DNA of 20,507 nucleotides from a virus, in the IMG/VR virus record IMGVR_UViG_3300042197_002170, positions 1 to 20,507 of that record; one strand, written 5' to 3'. Position 1 is the stretch's first letter, and each line of letters starts with the position of its first letter. Position numbers and translations under genes: made by a program. Of the stretch, positions 3,573 to 19,511 are shown piece after piece. Under the pieces are notes generated by a model that had not been told where the DNA came from, made no database searches, and was given only the letters and a program-made list of their open reading frames with translations.

Positions 3573-5798
3573 ATGCTTGTCCAAAAGCGTGATGGTTCTT
3601 TTGAGGAATATAATGTTGAAAAAATTCACAAAGTTGTGGAGTGGGCAAGCAAAGATATCAATAATGTTTCTTGGTCAGATATAGAGATGAATGCTAATCT
3701 ATCCCTTAGGGACGGTATATCTACTAAGGAGATACATCAAATTTTAATTAAATCCGCCAACGATCTTATATCAACCTCTAAACCAAATTATCAGTATGTT
3801 GCTTCAAAATTGTTAAACATGTCTTTGAGAAAAGATCTTTGGTTAAAGCATGATTGTCCACCATCTTTAGGTAATCATATAACTACTAATATAGAAAACG
3901 ATGTATATGACTCGTCTATTTATAGTAAGTGGAATCAAAATCAATTGCTAGAGATAGAATCAGCTATTGATCACGATAGAGATTATTTATTTACATACGC
4001 TGGTTTACAACAAATGATAGATAAATATCTTGTTAAGAACAGGGTAACTAACAAGATTTATGAAACGCCACAATTTGCATATATTTGTATAGCAATGGCT
4101 CTATTTGATAATGTACAAGATGTTGTTAATGCTTACGAGTGTTTTTCTACCTTTAAAATAAATTTACCAACGCCAATAATGGCTGGAGTAAGAACAAAAA
4201 TAAAACAATTTGCTAGCTGTGTTCTTGTTGATGTTGACGATGATCTTGACTCTATTTTCTCAAGTGTTCATGCTATTGGAAAATATACCGCCAGACGCGC
4301 CGGTATAGGATTAAACGTTGGGCGCATCAGACCAATAAATTCTAGTATTCGCGGCGGCGAGGTTGTACATACTGGTCTTATACCATATTTAAAAATATTC
4401 GAATCTACTGTTAAAGCTACTAGTCAAAACGGAATAAGGGGTGGATCAGCCAATGTTAATGTTGCTTGGTGGCATTATGAAATAGAAGACGTCCTTTCTT
4501 TAAAGAATAATGCTGGAACAGACGATAATAGAGTAAGAAAGCTTGACTATACTATACAATTTGATAAAACATTTTATGAACGATTAATAGCGAATGAAGA
4601 AGTAACACTATTTAGTCCAAGCGAATGCTCTGGACTTTATGAAGCTTTTGGAAATAATGAAGAATTTAAAAAACTATATGAAAAATATGAAAAGTCAAAA
4701 AATATTAAGATTAAGAAAAAGATAAGTGCTAGAAAATTAGCAGAGATATTTGCTAAAGAAAGATTAGAAACTGGCAGAATCTATTCCATGAATATCGATA
4801 ATGCTAATGATCATGGGTCTTGGAATGTTCCAGTTAAAATGACAAATTTATGTGTAGAAATTATTCACTATACAAAGCCTATTAAATCAATAGAAGATGA
4901 TGAGGGAGAAATTGGTATTTGTATTCTTTCTGCCCTTAATCTATTAGAATTAGAAACGTACGATGATATTGTAAAAGCTTGTAATATGTCTGTTAAAACT
5001 CTTGAGTCAATAATTGATTATCAAGATTATCCAGTTGTTGCTGGAGAAAATTTTACAAAAAACAGAAGATCATTAGGTATAGGAATAACTAACCTTGCTG
5101 GCTTTCTAGCCAAACATAAGTTAAAATATGACGACCCAGAAGCATTGGTGCTTATTCACAATACTATGGAAAAAATTCAGTGGAATCTTTTGAATGAATC
5201 TTGTGAACTTGCTAAACTAAAAGGGGTGTGTAAAAAGTTCGGTGATACAAAGTATGCAAAAGGCTTACTGCCGATAGATTGGTATAAAAAAACAGTAGAT
5301 GATCTTGTAAAGCCCGAATATACAATGGATTGGGAATTATTAAGACAAAAAATTAAACAATATGGGCTAAGACACTCAACACTAACAGCAATTATGCCAT
5401 GTGAGTCATCCAGTGTTATACAAAATAGTACCAACGGTATAGAACCAGTTAGAAACCTTTTATCATATAAAAAAGCAAAGAATGGTATTTTAAAACAAAT
5501 TGTTCCAAATTATACCTCTAGAAAAAATTTTTATACCTTAGCTTGGGATCTTAAAAATAATAATTCTTTAATAAATATATCTGCTGTATTACAAAAGTTT
5601 GTGGATATGGGGATAAGTACAAATCTATACTATAACTATGCTAATTTTGAGGGCGGCAACATTCCATTAAGTGTATTAATAAAGGATCAACTATATGGAT
5701 ATAAATATGGAATCAAAAATTTTTATTACGCCAACTCTCCTGACGGCGATGGCTCAACAGAAAAACAATCTTGTGAGGGCGGATCATGTTCAATTTAA
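3573..5798 (+). CDS. nrdA: Class Ia ribonucleoside-diphosphate reductase, alpha subunit
   Basis: 741 residues, close to the 761 of E. coli NrdA, which it follows along its whole length. It reduces ribonucleoside diphosphates to deoxy forms using the radical supplied by NrdB. An N-terminal ATP-cone is present (residues about 1-90, KRDGSFEEYNVEKIHKV), so activity control by dATP is possible. Catalytic residues are intact: C216 (FASCVL) and C450 (GICILSALNL) as the redox pair, N425, C427 and E429 (TNLCVEI) at the active site, Y718-Y719 on the radical path and the C-terminal C734-x4-C739 pair that accepts electrons. AGGAG lies nine bases before the ATG. Its 3' end overlaps the DUF1501 gene by 13 bases. 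It should be functional. Confidence 0.97.
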   Translation: MLVQKRDGSFEEYNVEKIHKVVEWASKDINNVSWSDIEMNANLSLRDGISTKEIHQILIKSANDLISTSKPNYQYVASKLLNMSLRKDLWLKHDCPPSLGNHITTNIENDVYDSSIYSKWNQNQLLEIESAIDHDRDYLFTYAGLQQMIDKYLVKNRVTNKIYETPQFAYICIAMALFDNVQDVVNAYECFSTFKINLPTPIMAGVRTKIKQFASCVLVDVDDDLDSIFSSVHAIGKYTARRAGIGLNVGRIRPINSSIRGGEVVHTGLIPYLKIFESTVKATSQNGIRGGSANVNVAWWHYEIEDVLSLKNNAGTDDNRVRKLDYTIQFDKTFYERLIANEEVTLFSPSECSGLYEAFGNNEEFKKLYEKYEKSKNIKIKKKISARKLAEIFAKERLETGRIYSMNIDNANDHGSWNVPVKMTNLCVEIIHYTKPIKSIEDDEGEIGICILSALNLLELETYDDIVKACNMSVKTLESIIDYQDYPVVAGENFTKNRRSLGIGITNLAGFLAKHKLKYDDPEALVLIHNTMEKIQWNLLNESCELAKLKGVCKKFGDTKYAKGLLPIDWYKKTVDDLVKPEYTMDWELLRQKIKQYGLRHSTLTAIMPCESSSVIQNSTNGIEPVRNLLSYKKAKNGILKQIVPNYTSRKNFYTLAWDLKNNNSLINISAVLQKFVDMGISTNLYYNYANFEGGNIPLSVLIKDQLYGYKYGIKNFYYANSPDGDGSTEKQSCEGGSCSI

Positions 5799-7036
5799 AC
5801 AGAAGAAATTTTCTTTTATCTACTAGTTCCATTGGTTTAACAGCAACACTAAATAATGTTTCATTTGCTGTTAATCACGACAATCATCCAATGGTAACCC
5901 CTAATGAGAATAGTATTATATATCTATTTCTAAGTGGTGGTCCAACGCATATAGAAACTTTTAATCCTATACCAAATTCTCCAGTAGATAGGAGATCGAT
6001 AGTAGGACACTTAACAACAAAAACTCCCGGTGTTAGAATAGGTGGTCTATGGGAAAATTTATCTAATAAACCAGAAAAATTTACAATAGTAAACAGCTTT
6101 GCTCATGGTGATGCTAATCATGAAAGTGCTGTTCATTGGATGATGACAGGAGAAAGAACTGTACCAAACTCTGCACAAAAATGGCCCAGTTATGGTAGCG
6201 TTATAAGTGGTCAATATGGAACAAATGTTAAGGATGGATTACCCACATATGTTAAGTTAAATAAGATAGAACATGATGCCGCCGCTTGGATGGGTAGCAA
6301 ATATATGGGTTATACAGCAAGCGCAGAGGGTGTTAAAGATTTGGTAATGAAAGATCCGGCTAGATTTCAGCATAGATTAGAATTTTTAAAAGTTGTAGAA
6401 TCAAGTAATAGGCTAGGAAATTTACCAGCAGCAAAGTCTTGGACAGATTTAAGGGAGCAAGCAATAAATGTTTTATTTGGTAAGGCTAGCGAAGCATTTA
6501 TGGTAGAAAAAGATCCCGAATTTGATTTATATAAGAAAGATCAGCTAGGTAAAGATATATTAACAGCCATGAGACTAGTAGAACGTGGTGTTAAATTTGT
6601 TACCATTAATTATGGTGGTTGGGATATGCACCAAAATATGTTAGAAGGATTAAAGTCTAAGGTTCCACCACTTGATTTTTATCTATCAAAATATTTTGAG
6701 TCTGCTGAAAAAAGAAATATAAATTATCGTAATATGTTAGTTATGACCGGAGATTTTGGTAGAACACCAAAAGTAAATAAAGATGGCGGCAGAGATCACT
6801 GGCCTAATTTGGTTCCACTATTTTTTGCTTGTGATTCATACCCAATGAATAGAATAATTGGTACTTCCGATACTAATGCAGAAAGGCCAGACCAAAACCC
6901 ATTTAATCCAGAAGATTTAAGATGGACAATGTTTGAACACGTTGGAATAAATAAAACAGCAGATTGGTATAGCATAGAGGGTAGACCCATGATGTTTGTG
7001 AAAGATAGTAATTCTAAAAATATACTAAAAGGGTAA
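5786..7036 (+). CDS. DUF1501 family protein with Tat-like signal, inserted between nrdA and nrdB
   Basis: 416 residues. DUF1501 belongs to the alkaline phosphatase/sulfatase-like superfamily and is abundant in Planctomycetes and related bacteria; no activity is settled. Family landmarks are present in order: NRRNFLL (5-11), a Tat-like twin-arginine motif leading a short hydrophobic segment; LSGGPTHIETFNPIP (from 49), where the nucleophile position of the superfamily would lie; AHGDANHES (from 106); GGWDMH (277-282); GDFGRTP (322-328); and GRDHW (335-339). These His and Asp clusters are the expected metal ligands. The start ATG lies inside nrdA, with GAGGG about nine bases upstream, so it is coupled to the reductase. 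Length is near the family norm and nothing looks broken. Export through Tat and a hydrolase role are inferred. Confidence 0.9.
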   Translation: MFNLNRRNFLLSTSSIGLTATLNNVSFAVNHDNHPMVTPNENSIIYLFLSGGPTHIETFNPIPNSPVDRRSIVGHLTTKTPGVRIGGLWENLSNKPEKFTIVNSFAHGDANHESAVHWMMTGERTVPNSAQKWPSYGSVISGQYGTNVKDGLPTYVKLNKIEHDAAAWMGSKYMGYTASAEGVKDLVMKDPARFQHRLEFLKVVESSNRLGNLPAAKSWTDLREQAINVLFGKASEAFMVEKDPEFDLYKKDQLGKDILTAMRLVERGVKFVTINYGGWDMHQNMLEGLKSKVPPLDFYLSKYFESAEKRNINYRNMLVMTGDFGRTPKVNKDGGRDHWPNLVPLFFACDSYPMNRIIGTSDTNAERPDQNPFNPEDLRWTMFEHVGINKTADWYSIEGRPMMFVKDSNSKNILKG

Positions 7037-7038
7037 TA

Positions 7039-8115
7039 ATGAAAACAATATTAAATAAGCAAAATGTAAACTATTTAAACCAGCCGTTATTTTTAGGAGA
7101 AGATCTTTCACTACAAAGATATGATAAATTTAAATATCCAATATTTTTTGACCTGTATAAAAAACAGTTAGAGTTTTTCTGGCGACCAGAAGAAATCGAG
7201 CTAAAAAAAGATAGAAATGATTTTAAAAATGATCAAATAATGTCTGAGAATGAGAGGTTTATTTTTACTTCTAATCTCAAATACCAAACAATGATGGATA
7301 GTGTTATATGTCGCGGAGTACCAACAATATTACAATATGTTTCTAATCCAGAACTAGAAGCTTGTATGAATGTTTGGGGTTTTTTTGAGCAAATACATAG
7401 CTATAGTTATACATATATTATTAAGAATGTTTACAGTAATCCAAGTGATATACTTGACAGTTGCTTAACTGATCAAGAAATACTAAAACGTGCTGATGTT
7501 GCAATAAAAGAGTATAATTCTCTTAGAGAACTATCATCTTCTGGATCTACTAAAGATCTTAAAAAACAAATCTATTTAACATTGATTAGTGTGAATATAT
7601 TAGAGGCTGTAAGATTTTATGTTTCATTTGTATGCGCTTTTGCTTTTGCTGAAAATAAAAAAATGATTGGCAACGCTGATATTATAAAGTTGATCAAAAG
7701 AGATGAAGCGTTACATCTTTATAATACTCAAGAAATAATAAAAATATTAAGAACGGCAGAAGAAGAAGGATTTATTGATATCGCAAAAGAGAATGAAGAA
7801 AGTGCTATAAAAATGTTTGAGTCAGCCGCACAAGAAGAAAAAGCCTGGGCTTCATATTTATTTAAAGATGGGTCTATTATAGGACTTAATGAAAAAGTTT
7901 TATCGGAATATATAAACTGGCTTTGTATGAGTAGAAGAAAAAATATAGGATTGCCTTATGATAAGGGTTGCAAAAATCCTATATCTGGTTGGACAGATCC
8001 GTGGATGAATAGTGAATCTGTTCAAGTGGCACCACAAGAACACGAAATAACTTCTTATAAAATTGGTGCTAGTAAGAATGATCTTGATGATATGGACTTT
8101 GGAGGAATAATATGA
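7039..8115 (+). CDS. nrdB: Class Ia ribonucleoside-diphosphate reductase, beta subunit
   Basis: 358 residues, aligning with E. coli NrdB from end to end. It carries the diiron centre and the stable tyrosyl radical that starts catalysis in NrdA. The metal ligands are all present: D87 (YQTMMDS), E117 and H120 (FEQIHSYSY), E189 (NILEAVRFY), and E223 and H226 (RDEALH). The radical tyrosine corresponds to Y124; Y122 two residues earlier replaces an Arg of the E. coli protein. The acidic C-terminal tail (DDMDFGGII) is the part that docks on NrdA. AAGGG lies shortly before the start, and the gene begins two bases after the DUF1501 stop. Its own end overlaps dut as ATGA. It should be active. Confidence 0.97.
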   Translation: MKTILNKQNVNYLNQPLFLGEDLSLQRYDKFKYPIFFDLYKKQLEFFWRPEEIELKKDRNDFKNDQIMSENERFIFTSNLKYQTMMDSVICRGVPTILQYVSNPELEACMNVWGFFEQIHSYSYTYIIKNVYSNPSDILDSCLTDQEILKRADVAIKEYNSLRELSSSGSTKDLKKQIYLTLISVNILEAVRFYVSFVCAFAFAENKKMIGNADIIKLIKRDEALHLYNTQEIIKILRTAEEEGFIDIAKENEESAIKMFESAAQEEKAWASYLFKDGSIIGLNEKVLSEYINWLCMSRRKNIGLPYDKGCKNPISGWTDPWMNSESVQVAPQEHEITSYKIGASKNDLDDMDFGGII

Positions 8116-8612
8116 GTTTTTTACCAGTATATAGTGATTGTGAGAATTTTGCTACAGACAAACTTGTTAAACAAGTTGGCGTTTTACTAAAAAGATCAGA
8201 CGCAAAAATCCCCACCAAAGCACATTATAATGATGCTGGATTTGATCTTTATTCAGTAGAAGACGCTGTTATACAACCAAAACAAAGAAAAACCGTTTGC
8301 ACAGGAATATGTTTACAGATACCAGATAATTATACCGGCTTAATATGGCCAAGGTCTGGTTTATCTGTAAAAAAAGGAATAGATGTATTAGCTGGCGTTA
8401 TAGATGCTGGCTATAGAGGAGAGGTCATGATTTGTTTATATAATACTTCTTTTGAAGCTGTTAGAATAAATCGTGGGGATAAGATCGCTCAGATTATATT
8501 CCAAGAAGTTCCTAATATATCTATGATTCCTATGGCTATGTTAGATTCTTCGCAACGGGGAGAAAACGGCTTTGGTAGCACAGACAAATTACAATTCGGA
8601 AAGCAACAATAG
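8112..8612 (+). CDS. dut: dUTP diphosphatase (trimeric dUTPase)
   Basis: 166 residues. It hydrolyses dUTP to dUMP and diphosphate, keeping uracil out of DNA and supplying dUMP for thymidylate synthesis. All five motifs of the trimeric family are present in order: AGFDLYS (42-48), PRSGLSVKKGI (80-90), GVIDAGYRGEV (95-105, with the catalytic Asp), GDKIAQIIF (122-130) and RGENGFGST (149-157, the C-terminal arm that closes over the substrate). The extra 20 residues at the N-terminus are not part of the usual core. A GGAGG site precedes the ATG, which overlaps the nrdB stop. The sequence for the last motif also holds the start of the phoH gene. Confidence 0.97.
   Translation: MSFLPVYSDCENFATDKLVKQVGVLLKRSDAKIPTKAHYNDAGFDLYSVEDAVIQPKQRKTVCTGICLQIPDNYTGLIWPRSGLSVKKGIDVLAGVIDAGYRGEVMICLYNTSFEAVRINRGDKIAQIIFQEVPNISMIPMAMLDSSQRGENGFGSTDKLQFGKQQ
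8557..8574 (+). promoter_or_regulatory. Ribosome binding site and TTG start of phoH inside dut
   Basis: GGGGAG at 8557-8562 is followed nine bases later by TTG at 8572-8574. The phoH frame has no ATG or GTG before its Walker A motif, and its first Met codon falls at about codon 140, so a rare start must be used. This is the best placed one. It lies within the codons for the last dUTPase motif, so the two genes overlap by 41 bases. Confidence 0.7.
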
Positions 8613-9267
8613 AAAAAAAAATAAAAAAGAAGCCAAGGTTTCCAAAGTTACTCCATTAGAAGCAAAAACTTATAATCAAAAAGAGTATATACGATCAATA
8701 ATAGAAAATGATATTACATTTTGTATAGGACCATCTGGTAGCGGTAAATCTTTTATTGCTGCTGGCATAGCTTCTGATCATTTATTTAGAGATAAAATAG
8801 AAAGTATTATAGTAACAAGACCTCTTGTTTGTACAGGAAAAGATATTGGATCCTTACCGGGCGAACTTAATGAAAAAATAAAACCTTACTTGCAGCCAGT
8901 GGAAGAGAATCTAAAGTTCTTTTTAGGGAGAGACAAGTTTGGCTTATATTTTAATACCAGAAGAATTAGATTTGAACCATTAGAAACTATGCGTGGGGCG
9001 ACCTTCCATAATTCTTATATGGTTTTAGATGAAGCGCAGAACTGTACACTTGAACAAATAAAGATGTTTATAACAAGAATGGGAGAAAATAGTAAAGTTA
9101 TAATTAATGGAGATCTAAAACAAACGGATCTTTTTAATAGAAGCGGATTGCAACTCTGTTTAGACAAACTTTTGGGAGTAAACGGTGTTGGAATATGCAA
9201 GCTTGACTATAATGATATACAGAGAAACGGAATTCTTGGAAGAGTTTTGAACGCTTTAGAAAGATAA
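8572..9267 (+). CDS. phoH: PhoH family P-loop ATPase
   Basis: 231 residues with a TTG start. The protein has a lysine-rich N-terminal tail (residues about 13-25), then a single P-loop ATPase domain: Walker A GPSGSGKS (53-60), TRPLV (82-86), LPGELNEKI (95-103), Walker B VLDEAQN (151-157) and the sensor stretch INGDLKQTD (178-186). This is the PhoH core found in bacteria, often as part of RNA-processing systems, and very common in phages. Its phage role is not settled; RNA helicase-like activity has been proposed for the family. It lacks the PIN domain of PhoH2 proteins. It shares 41 bases with dut and is followed closely by the FmdB-type gene. The family call is firm, the role open. Confidence 0.93.
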   Translation: MVAQTNYNSESNNRKKNKKEAKVSKVTPLEAKTYNQKEYIRSIIENDITFCIGPSGSGKSFIAAGIASDHLFRDKIESIIVTRPLVCTGKDIGSLPGELNEKIKPYLQPVEENLKFFLGRDKFGLYFNTRRIRFEPLETMRGATFHNSYMVLDEAQNCTLEQIKMFITRMGENSKVIINGDLKQTDLFNRSGLQLCLDKLLGVNGVGICKLDYNDIQRNGILGRVLNALER

Positions 9268-16025: not shown

Positions 16026-16772
16026 ATGGGTAAGATAATAGGCATATCTGGAAGAAAACAGGCTGGAAAAAATACTGTTGCAAATTATATAACTGGATAT
16101 TCTTTGCTACAATTAAAAATGATACAAGATTTCTATATTGATAAGGATGGAAGTCTCGTAGTTAAAACTGTTGATTCAGATAATAATAGTGGTTATGGCA
16201 TATTAGATTTGTTAAGAAAAGACGAATCATTCGTTGAGTATGCAGAAAAAAATCTTTGGCCATATATAAAAATATATCATTTTGCGGACCCTCTCAAAGA
16301 GATGAGTGTTAATTTATTTAATTTAGATCCTGCTTATATATATGGAGATAATGATAGCAAGAATTCTAAAACGGATTTTGAATGGAAAAATATGCCATCC
16401 TCAAATAAAAAATCTGGCAATCTAACAGTAAGAGAATTTTTAGAGTATTTTGGAACAAAAATAGTAAGAAAAATTTATGATAAAGCTTGGAGCGAATTTA
16501 CGCTTAAAAGAATTAATAAAGAACAAAGTTCTATATCTATTATCCCAGACGTTAGATTTCCAAATGAGGTTAAGGCTATAAAAGATAATGGGGGGATAGT
16601 TATAAGGTTAACTAGGAATATCCATAATAGTGATTTTGAGGCAGAAAGTGCTTTAGATAAAGATAATTTTGATTGGTCGAATTTTGACTATATAATAGAA
16701 AATGATAATATATCATTGACAGAATTATCTAGTAAACTTTCTGAACTTAACCATCTATGGAGTACTATATGA
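16026..16772 (+). CDS. Deoxynucleoside monophosphate kinase
   Basis: 248 residues, starting immediately after the primase stop. It would phosphorylate dNMPs to dNDPs for the dNTP pool. The protein opens with GKIIGISGRKQAGKNTVANY, a P-loop (GRKQAGKNT) like that of T4 gp1-type dNMP kinases. FADPLKEM (about 87-94), the usual substrate-side region, and REFLEYFGTKIVRKI follow. IIPDVRFPNEVKAIKDNGG, then VIRLTR, is the 'DvRfpnE' signature of this kinase family. An insertion of about 50 residues (about 30-80) after the P-loop is charged and variable. The gene complements nrdAB and dut earlier in the window, although it lies in the replication block. The family call is firm; which dNMPs it takes is not visible. 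Confidence 0.9.
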   Translation: MGKIIGISGRKQAGKNTVANYITGYSLLQLKMIQDFYIDKDGSLVVKTVDSDNNSGYGILDLLRKDESFVEYAEKNLWPYIKIYHFADPLKEMSVNLFNLDPAYIYGDNDSKNSKTDFEWKNMPSSNKKSGNLTVREFLEYFGTKIVRKIYDKAWSEFTLKRINKEQSSISIIPDVRFPNEVKAIKDNGGIVIRLTRNIHNSDFEAESALDKDNFDWSNFDYIIENDNISLTELSSKLSELNHLWSTI

Positions 16773-17791
16773 TAGTAACATATATAAGATCATCTAGTTA
16801 TAATAATTATGCTTATTGTGAAATGCAATATTTTATAACATATGTTCTTGGATATTATGGATTAAGCGGAAAGAAAGCTGAAATAGGCACTATAGTTCAC
16901 AAAGTTATGGAATGTTTAGCATCTCTTAAAAAAGAGCAGCAATGTTTATCGTCAAAAGCGAAAAAAATAATTATAGACGATGATGCTATAGGAAATATAT
17001 CTATATTAAAAAGTGCTTTATTATCAAAATCCTTACCTAACGACTTGCTAGATTTAAGTTTTGATTTTTATACAAAAAATTCTCATCATAATTTTACAGC
17101 ATCTGATAAAAAAGAGTGCAAAAAACTAGTCTGGGACACTCTAGAATTTAATAATGGACAATTTGATCCTAGAAATAGAAATATTATAGCGGCAGAACCA
17201 CATTTTGATATCCCAATAGAAGAAGATTGGGCCTTTTATGAATACCATATTAATGGTGAAAAAATAAAGGGGCAGCTTGCTATAAAGGGTACTATAGATT
17301 TAGTAACAAAGGTTGATGATAATACTATAGAAGTAGTAGATTGGAAAACCGGTAAAAGATTGGATTGGGCAACTGGTGAAGAGAAAACATATGAAAAACT
17401 TAATAATGATGCACAATTGTTATTATATAACTACGCAATATCTAAACTCTTTCCAGATTATAATCAATCAATTATGACTATATTTTTTATTAAGGATGGT
17501 GGCCCAATATCCTTATGTTTTGATAAAAATGACCATACCAAATTTCTCAGTATGCTAAAAAAGAGATTTAATGAAATACAGAAAAATAATATTCCAAAAC
17601 CAATATCAGAAGATAGAAGTAGCTGGAAATGTACAAAACTGTGTCATTTTTGTAAAAATAGCTGGAAAGACACTAACGTAAGTATGTGCAAATATGTGGA
17701 AAATCATATAAAAACTAATGGTATAGAAAAAACAGTGTCTGAATTAACAAAACCAGATTTTAATATTGGATTCTATTCTGCTCCGGGGTAA
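16769..17791 (+). CDS. PD-(D/E)XK exonuclease with Fe-S-type cysteines (Cas4/RecB family)
   Basis: 340 residues from ATG at 16769, chosen because it overlaps the kinase stop as ATGA and has GGAG six bases ahead; an ATG 12 bases upstream lies on that ribosome site itself. RecB/Cas4 nuclease motifs are present: GTIVHKVME with H44, E143 (AAEPHF), D177 (GTIDLV), D191 and K193 (VVDWKTGK), and QLLLY with Q216. Cys17 near the start (AYCEMQYF), with C288, C292, C295 and C307 near the end (CTKLCHFC, then C), gives the one-plus-three layout of a 4Fe-4S cluster, as in Cas4 and AddB. It would resect DNA ends for the recombinase. No cas1, cas2 or CRISPR array is nearby, so a replication or recombination role is preferred. 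Confidence 0.88.
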   Translation: MIVTYIRSSSYNNYAYCEMQYFITYVLGYYGLSGKKAEIGTIVHKVMECLASLKKEQQCLSSKAKKIIIDDDAIGNISILKSALLSKSLPNDLLDLSFDFYTKNSHHNFTASDKKECKKLVWDTLEFNNGQFDPRNRNIIAAEPHFDIPIEEDWAFYEYHINGEKIKGQLAIKGTIDLVTKVDDNTIEVVDWKTGKRLDWATGEEKTYEKLNNDAQLLLYNYAISKLFPDYNQSIMTIFFIKDGGPISLCFDKNDHTKFLSMLKKRFNEIQKNNIPKPISEDRSSWKCTKLCHFCKNSWKDTNVSMCKYVENHIKTNGIEKTVSELTKPDFNIGFYSAPG

Positions 17792-18656: not shown

Positions 18657-19511
18657 ATGCCGACTCCATCTCGCAGAAAGGATGAAGAAAAACAAGGATT
18701 TGTTTCTAGATGTATGAGTAATGAAACAATGAAAAAAGAATACCCAGACGAAAAACAAAGGGTTGCTATCTGTATATCACAAGCAACTGCCACATGTGGC
18801 TGTGTAGAAGCGGCAGATTTTGAACTACAAATGGAAAATGGCTACGAAGAAGAAATTAATGAAGATAATTTTTACATACCATTAGAAGCTGAATATGTGG
18901 ATTTTGGCGAACAAACAGAAGAGTGGGATTGTGCAAAAGAAAAGCCTGGACTTTGGGAAAATATAAGAAAGAAAAAAGAACGTGAAGGCAAAAAATATAA
19001 ACCAGCAAAACCCGGAGATCCAGATAGACCAGACCCAAAGTCTTGGAAAAGGGCACAGTCTAGCGGTGGAGATGAAATGGCTATAGAACAACTGCAAAAA
19101 ATGCACGATCAATTAATGGCCATTGTTATGAAAATAAAATCTATGGATATAGAATTTCAGGATTGGACTAAAGATATGATATCCAAGGCGGAAATTTATA
19201 TTCAAAATATTTCTGATTTTGTTACTTATTATGAGCCAGGAAAATATGAGGACGAATATACAGAAAGCTCCGAATATCAAGGAAGAAAAGTAACTCTTAA
19301 TAAACCTTTTAGAACTCCTAGTGGGCCTAAAAAATTCAGCGTTTATGTAAAAAATGAAAAGGGCAATGTGGTCAAAGTCAATTTCGGTGATCCTAATATG
19401 AAAATTAAGAAAAATATTCCAGAACGAAGAAAAAGCTTTAGGGCTAGACATAATTGTGATAATCCGGGTCCAAAATGGAAAGCAAGATATTGGTCTTGTA
19501 AGGCTTGGTAA
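18657..19511 (+). CDS. Three-part phage protein with head-region-type termini
   Basis: 284 residues, strong AGGAGA site. Residues about 1-45 (RRKDEEKQGFVSRCMSNETM, then KKEYPDEKQRVAICISQ) match a pattern I know from proteins beside phage prohead proteases: 'fvsRCMsd..m..e.pd..QR.AiC'. An acidic part (about 50-90) and a Lys/Pro-rich linker follow. Residues about 140-195 are a helical bundle (EQLQKMHDQLMAIVMKIK, then DWTKDMISKAEIYIQNISDF) seen in the same group. Residues about 215-284 (KKFSVYVKNEKGNVVKVNFG, then RRKSFRARHNCDNPGPKWKA and RYWSCKAW) form a C-terminal 'RARHnCd-PGP-kArYWsC' signature common in phage proteins. A capsid assembly or prohead role is likely, from memory of families rather than proof. 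No protease motif is seen. Confidence 0.75.
   Translation: MPTPSRRKDEEKQGFVSRCMSNETMKKEYPDEKQRVAICISQATATCGCVEAADFELQMENGYEEEINEDNFYIPLEAEYVDFGEQTEEWDCAKEKPGLWENIRKKKEREGKKYKPAKPGDPDRPDPKSWKRAQSSGGDEMAIEQLQKMHDQLMAIVMKIKSMDIEFQDWTKDMISKAEIYIQNISDFVTYYEPGKYEDEYTESSEYQGRKVTLNKPFRTPSGPKKFSVYVKNEKGNVVKVNFGDPNMKIKKNIPERRKSFRARHNCDNPGPKWKARYWSCKAW

Follow-up and report, generated by a model that had tools for sequence, protein, structure and literature searches.

The closest described relatives of the gene treated here are the DUF1501 genes of Planctomycetota and Verrucomicrobiota. DUF1501 clusters are found preferentially in those PVC bacteria that have intracellular membranes, and the domain is without biochemical characterisation (PMC4452313, PMC4960237). 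The proteins have a twin-arginine motif, and in some bacteria the genes lie together with genes for DUF1800 and chitin synthase (PMC5122149), and PSCyt-type genes are linked through their context to carbohydrate metabolism (PMC5615132). Short of proof, the literature favours a role in the envelope or with glycans. No paper devoted to phage DUF1501 was found in the literature, only one incidental entry in a table of weak hits. The entry A0A6J5M742 (BFVD/UniProt), a "DUF1501 domain-containing protein" of an uncultured Caudovirales phage, shows that the domain has been annotated in a phage before now; it has the same family name and fold as the protein described below but only 10% identity to it. 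Among the auxiliary metabolic genes of cyanophages, phoA and pstS provide another comparison, with an exported protein of alkaline-phosphatase-type fold likewise encoded by a large phage.

The stretch of DNA analysed, hereafter the window, is a virus record of 20,507 bases and constitutes a fragment. It contains an intact DUF1501 ORF with an ATG start (Table 1), whose product matches PF07394 with an E-value of 6.8e-55 and 187 bits (cut-off 27) over profile positions 2–382 of 390, and for which there is no family in PHROGs. The start overlaps the end of nrdA by exactly 13 nt and the end is located exactly 2 nt from the start of nrdB. An earlier note had placed the gene at these coordinates with this overlap and gap, and had suggested that it may be cargo in a phage operon with ribonucleotide reductase; both points are borne out by the ORF positions, the Pfam match and the flanking products, which exceed the cut-offs of the class Ia models NF006578 (890 bits, cut-off 813) and NF006576 (376.5 bits, cut-off 346). 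The motifs it had listed are present as well, namely the twin arginine at residues 6–7, GGPTH at 51–55 and the three later motifs of Table 1. A glycosyltransferase is also encoded in the window, and positions 648–1541 encode a protein with fn3 and F5/8-type C-like parts. The first 2000 nt have a GC fraction of 0.43–0.50, compared with about 0.30–0.35 in the remainder.

Table 1. Location of the DUF1501 gene, its motifs and neighbouring genes in the window.
Feature	Position	Strand	Description	Basis
nrdA	3573..5798	+	class Ia ribonucleotide reductase alpha subunit	NCBIfam equivalog model
DUF1501 (PF07394) gene	5786..7036	+	416 aa, class A of the phage DUF1501 paralogues	ORF call, Pfam match, class tree
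N-terminal twin-arginine (Tat-type) signal	5786..5869	+	RRNFLL at residues 6–11	sequence motif
Motif I, GGPTHIETFNPIP	5936..5974	+	residues 51–63; D60N and K62I relative to cellular FDPKP	
Motif GGWDMH	6614..6631	+	residues 277–282; D280 and H282 invariant in phage and cellular members	
Motif GDFGRTP	6749..6769	+	residues 322–328	
Motif GRDHW	6788..6802	+	residues 335–339; R336, D337 and H338 near-invariant	
nrdB	7039..8115	+	class Ia ribonucleotide reductase beta subunit	NCBIfam equivalog model
dut	8112..8612	+	dUTPase, downstream of nrdB	
phoH	8572..9267	+	PhoH-like ATPase, downstream of nrdB	
Exonuclease gene	16757..17791	+	homologue directly 5' of the DUF1501 array in many relatives	
Conserved phage gene	18657..19511	+	phrog_7595 match at the C terminus; homologues adjoin DUF1501 arrays in many relatives	

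Five further viral contigs (L001, L005, L006, L007 and L008), which come from different IMG records and were independently assembled, share the order nrdA-DUF1501-nrdB, and the DUF1501/nrdB junction is seen in L192. As L005–L008 are mutually close, about three lineages besides the window have this arrangement. A chimeric assembly, which the earlier note had considered, is ruled out by the same gene order in independently assembled contigs, and this recurrence together with the purifying selection described below makes chance or chimera very unlikely. The junction was surveyed in the 80 contigs with the closest nrdB (82–89% identity), 73 of which contain it. The two genes are directly adjacent in 43 contigs, which agrees with the statement that the reductase subunits are normally neighbours, DUF1501 lies between them in 5, and other sequence of 100–1300 nt is found in the remaining 25, indicating that the site is an insertion hotspot; DUF1501 at this position is one use of it, and other genes are found there in relatives. 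These inserts, in contigs L166–L244 (e.g. L175:4935–6001, L177:5374–6001 and L182:2052–2701), encode putative HNH-like, FkbM-methyltransferase-like and CxxC (about 134 aa) proteins, among others. In L179:690–1817, L240 and L244:3445–4520 an insert some 1.1 kb long interrupts nrdA itself, and it could be an intron, an intein or a homing element. DUF1501 was found anywhere in only 2 of 24 large related records, and with 22 of them lacking it this group of phages can do without the gene.

Scanning of IMG/VR with the single sequence gave 3 relatives, with a four-sequence profile 7, and with a profile including a paralogue 145 stretches, 80 of which were kept. These relatives rule out a unique insertion, and the gene is not confined to this contig alone as the earlier note had allowed. 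With the window included, 177 DUF1501 ORFs in 84 viral loci were examined, and five classes can be told apart on a tree: A (the window, THIETFNPIP), B (TQFETFHAP), C (HQETFDPK), D (HQDMWDIK) and E (STMDIWDLKP). There are 1–4 copies per record in 22 viral records, and the view of the window gene as an isolated oddity was too narrow, the gene being widespread and often multi-copy in a group of large phages. In most of the contigs the DUF1501 genes are located either in a common block with genes for DnaB, a primase, a dNMP kinase, an exonuclease and a homologue of the window ORF 18657–19511, or between divergent nrdB and phoH. A terminase profile is matched in 15 of 20 records, strongly in only 8, and several of the weak matches probably represent different ATPases, PhoH for instance. 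In G002, a near relative, very long genes of tail type occupy the opposite strand. A collection of 50,697 phage records gave no clear match, only one weak match to a class E query with 30% coverage. The best reading is that the large phages carrying DUF1501 are a group of related, uncultured, tailed phages. In front of class E genes lie overlapping genes whose products contain proline-rich stretches (L003:1–1009, L002:1–912 and G009:C1:23592–23984); one product has a signal-like N terminus, and these are possible partner proteins. In addition, a phage gene at L002:8540–9070 encodes a product with a calpain-like domain (PF00648) that begins MFMKLFTEKLEDKRMMTA, a LEDR-like start which we take to be reminiscent of planctomycete secreted proteins.

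The window protein resembles the DUF1501 proteins of Planctomycetota and Verrucomicrobiota in its Tat-type signal, length, GG, H112, WDxH, FGRTP, N331, GRDH and profile match, but differs from them in D60N, K62I and other class-specific changes, and its gene is phage-borne, AT-rich, overlaps nrdA, abuts nrdB and has no PSCyt2/PSD1 partner. Motifs were compared in 77 cellular, 11 class A and 25 other phage rows, in which RR, GG, H112, W279, D280, H282, D297, FGRT, N331 and GRDH vary little or not at all; the core residues G51, G52, H112, D280, H282, R326, N331, G335, R336, D337 and H338 are all present in the window protein. The twin arginine is kept in all 76 cellular rows with letters at that place and in 36 of 36 phage rows, and RRxF occurs close to the start of 158 of the 162 phage copies that are full-length, so that the Tat-type signal noticed earlier stands as a motif, with a plausible cleavage site near residue 28 (between SFA and V). 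Motif I is different. All 11 class A rows have N at position 60 and either I or L at position 62 (N60 and I62 in the window), whereas the cellular rows have D60 in 75/77 and K62 in 74/77 (96–97%). This Asp and Lys (FDPKP) are usual in DUF1501, although not required by the Pfam model; FDPK is retained by the cellular relatives nearest to class A, class B is likewise without D60, and the full motif I is kept in copies of classes C–E. D60 may be an active-site residue, and given the changes at 60 and 62 the window's class might not catalyse what the host proteins do. Omega is 0.02–0.16 in the seven phage pairs for which it could be estimated (0.16 for the window and L001), indicating purifying selection, where the sign is firm rather than the value since several pairs have a high dS.

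Counts in nine PVC-type genomes, which include one Hydrogenedentota MAG, gave 20–83 DUF1501 genes each. The closest cellular matches of the window protein are 33–37% identical and nearly all from Planctomycetota or Verrucomicrobiota, which supports the planctomycete type first noted; class A, more diverged than classes C and E, has a best cellular match of 37%, and no cellular relatives matched the A1 patterns. Class C shows 64–69% identity to a planctomycete gene in the best genomes, with matches at E<=1e-90 in 48 of 294 Planctomycetota genomes, and class E 63–67% identity to planctomycete genes. Class C is also up to 87% identical to L161:4867–6174, on a contig that was binned into a Planctomycetaceae MAG and on which the neighbouring genes (sugar epimerase, PSCyt2/PSD1) look chromosomal, and the 87% match reflects either a recent gene exchange or a binning matter. 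The planctomycete orthologues of classes C and E adjoin PSCyt2/PSD1 genes, and a search of 22 phage records for PSCyt2 as a co-captured partner found none. Matches of a spacer-like kind between the window and 392 Planctomycetota genomes were only short and weak, with the best in the conserved DUF1501 core.

A tree was built from 36 phage and 77 cellular rows, the latter picked by similarity to the phage queries, and phage copies are placed at several points among the PVC sequences. The search behind it was quick and short, some of its branches are long, and two or three phage rows are doubtful (L054, which may be a bacterial contig, and single long branches). About 10 label changes are needed, 9 of them forced by starred branches, indicating that there were several captures and arguing, within such a quick tree, against a single origin of all phage copies. 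Classes A and B constitute one clade with an SH-aLRT of 93, below the starred level, and five planctomycete genes are next to it. The genes were probably taken from planctomycete hosts, and from these sequence relationships we infer a PVC host for the window phage and a transfer from host to phage.

The AlphaFold model of the window protein has a pLDDT of 83 and a pTM of 0.85, and Foldseek gave 304 PDB matches at E<=0.001, the best to carbohydrate sulfatases, LtaS-type synthases and PhoA with E-values of about 1e-8 to 1e-6 and a TM of only about 0.4. The predicted fold is alkaline phosphatase/sulfatase-like, in keeping with the hydrolase-like fold first suggested, but the protein differs from these structures by its identity of about 8–14%, the missing formylglycine signature and the class-specific loss of a conserved Asp; a search of solved structures by sequence gave no significant match. 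The [CS]xPxR formylglycine (FGly) signature is absent from 177/177 phage copies, so that by its signature a type I sulfatase is rejected, and a search of 24 phage records for a phosphate module with PstS found none. Unlike the cyanophage phoA/pstS genes, the DUF1501 gene belongs to a different family in which no link to PstS or phosphate was found, and several paralogues per genome are present in many relatives.

That the window gene encodes a host-derived, Tat-exported DUF1501 enzyme, obtained from a PVC-like host and acting in the envelope of the infected cell, is a reading to which we give about an even chance as a whole. An ancestor of a large tailed phage group would have taken DUF1501 from a planctomycete-like (PVC) host, and in the window phage and its nearest kin the gene lies between nrdA and nrdB and overlaps or abuts the two. 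From this position, its production probably coincides with that of the replication and nucleotide enzymes, ahead of lysis. The protein would pass the inner membrane in folded form by the Tat system of the host, and could then act in the periplasm or envelope as an enzyme of alkaline-phosphatase/sulfatase fold on the host envelope or on an exported glycan, in place of or beside the host DUF1501 proteins. The export in the infected cell, the timing of expression, the activity and the substrate are here predicted from sequence features. Points against this reading are, for a PVC host, the 37% of the best class A match and the 392 Planctomycetota genomes without a convincing spacer-like match, for activity, the low TM, the missing sulfatase nucleophile signature and D60N with K62I or L throughout class A, and further the 22 large related records that lack the gene. 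A more specific and more tentative version is that the PVC-phage group has repeatedly captured DUF1501 and deploys 1–4 per phage as exported factors, and that the window's class, with its changed motif I, has become a phage-specific factor acting on the PSCyt2-DUF1501 envelope systems of the host.

Superinfection exclusion or receptor masking, in which the exported protein would modify or cap a surface glycan and block related phages, with the paralogue classes corresponding to several receptors, appears unlikely. The export signal, the location among replication and not structural genes, the several diverging paralogues per phage, the varying presence among close relatives and the glycosyltransferase in the window are all consistent with it, but no receptor is known, and classes C and E very closely resemble conserved host genes, which fits a supplementing of host functions better than an arms-race factor. 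Of the two roles raised in the earlier note, alteration of the host envelope is a candidate one. The other is scavenging, with a phosphatase or sulfatase in the periplasm that would release phosphate or sulfate during infection like cyanophage phoA, and we consider it improbable. It has the fold in its favour, and phoH nearby, but phoH is common in phages whatever the phosphate status, and in the absence of a sulfatase signature from the 177 copies and of PstS from the 24 records such scavenging is unproven; the motif-I Asp is moreover lost in classes A and B.

A rival built on the same loss is a catalytically altered decoy, where class A and B proteins without D60 and K62 would bind partners or substrates of the host DUF1501 systems (PSCyt2/PSD1 proteins) and block or redirect them. 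That every one of the 11 class A rows has D60N and K62I/L, that class B has lost D60 too and that the core is otherwise invariant fits this, as does the lack in the phages of the PSCyt2 partner that adjoins the host orthologues of classes C and E. However, the nearest cellular relatives of classes A and B are not clearly PSCyt2-linked, class C–E copies have the full motif and any part of D60 in metal binding or catalysis is putative, and we hold a decoy to be about as improbable as scavenging. Passive cargo in an insertion hotspot, with no phage-specific role, would explain the other inserts in 25/73 contigs and the fact that most close relatives are without DUF1501, but is already weakened by the low omega over a deep divergence, and the twin arginine and core motifs are retained and several subfamilies have been captured recurrently, leaving it very improbable.

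The reading of a captured, exported enzyme acting in the host envelope concerns a protein family that is heavily expanded in planctomycete genomes. To our knowledge few phages are known for PVC hosts, and DUF1501 may serve as a marker tying large unassigned phages to such hosts. The phage DUF1501 genes, being under selection and free of the usual partner genes, constitute a tractable route to the function of the family.
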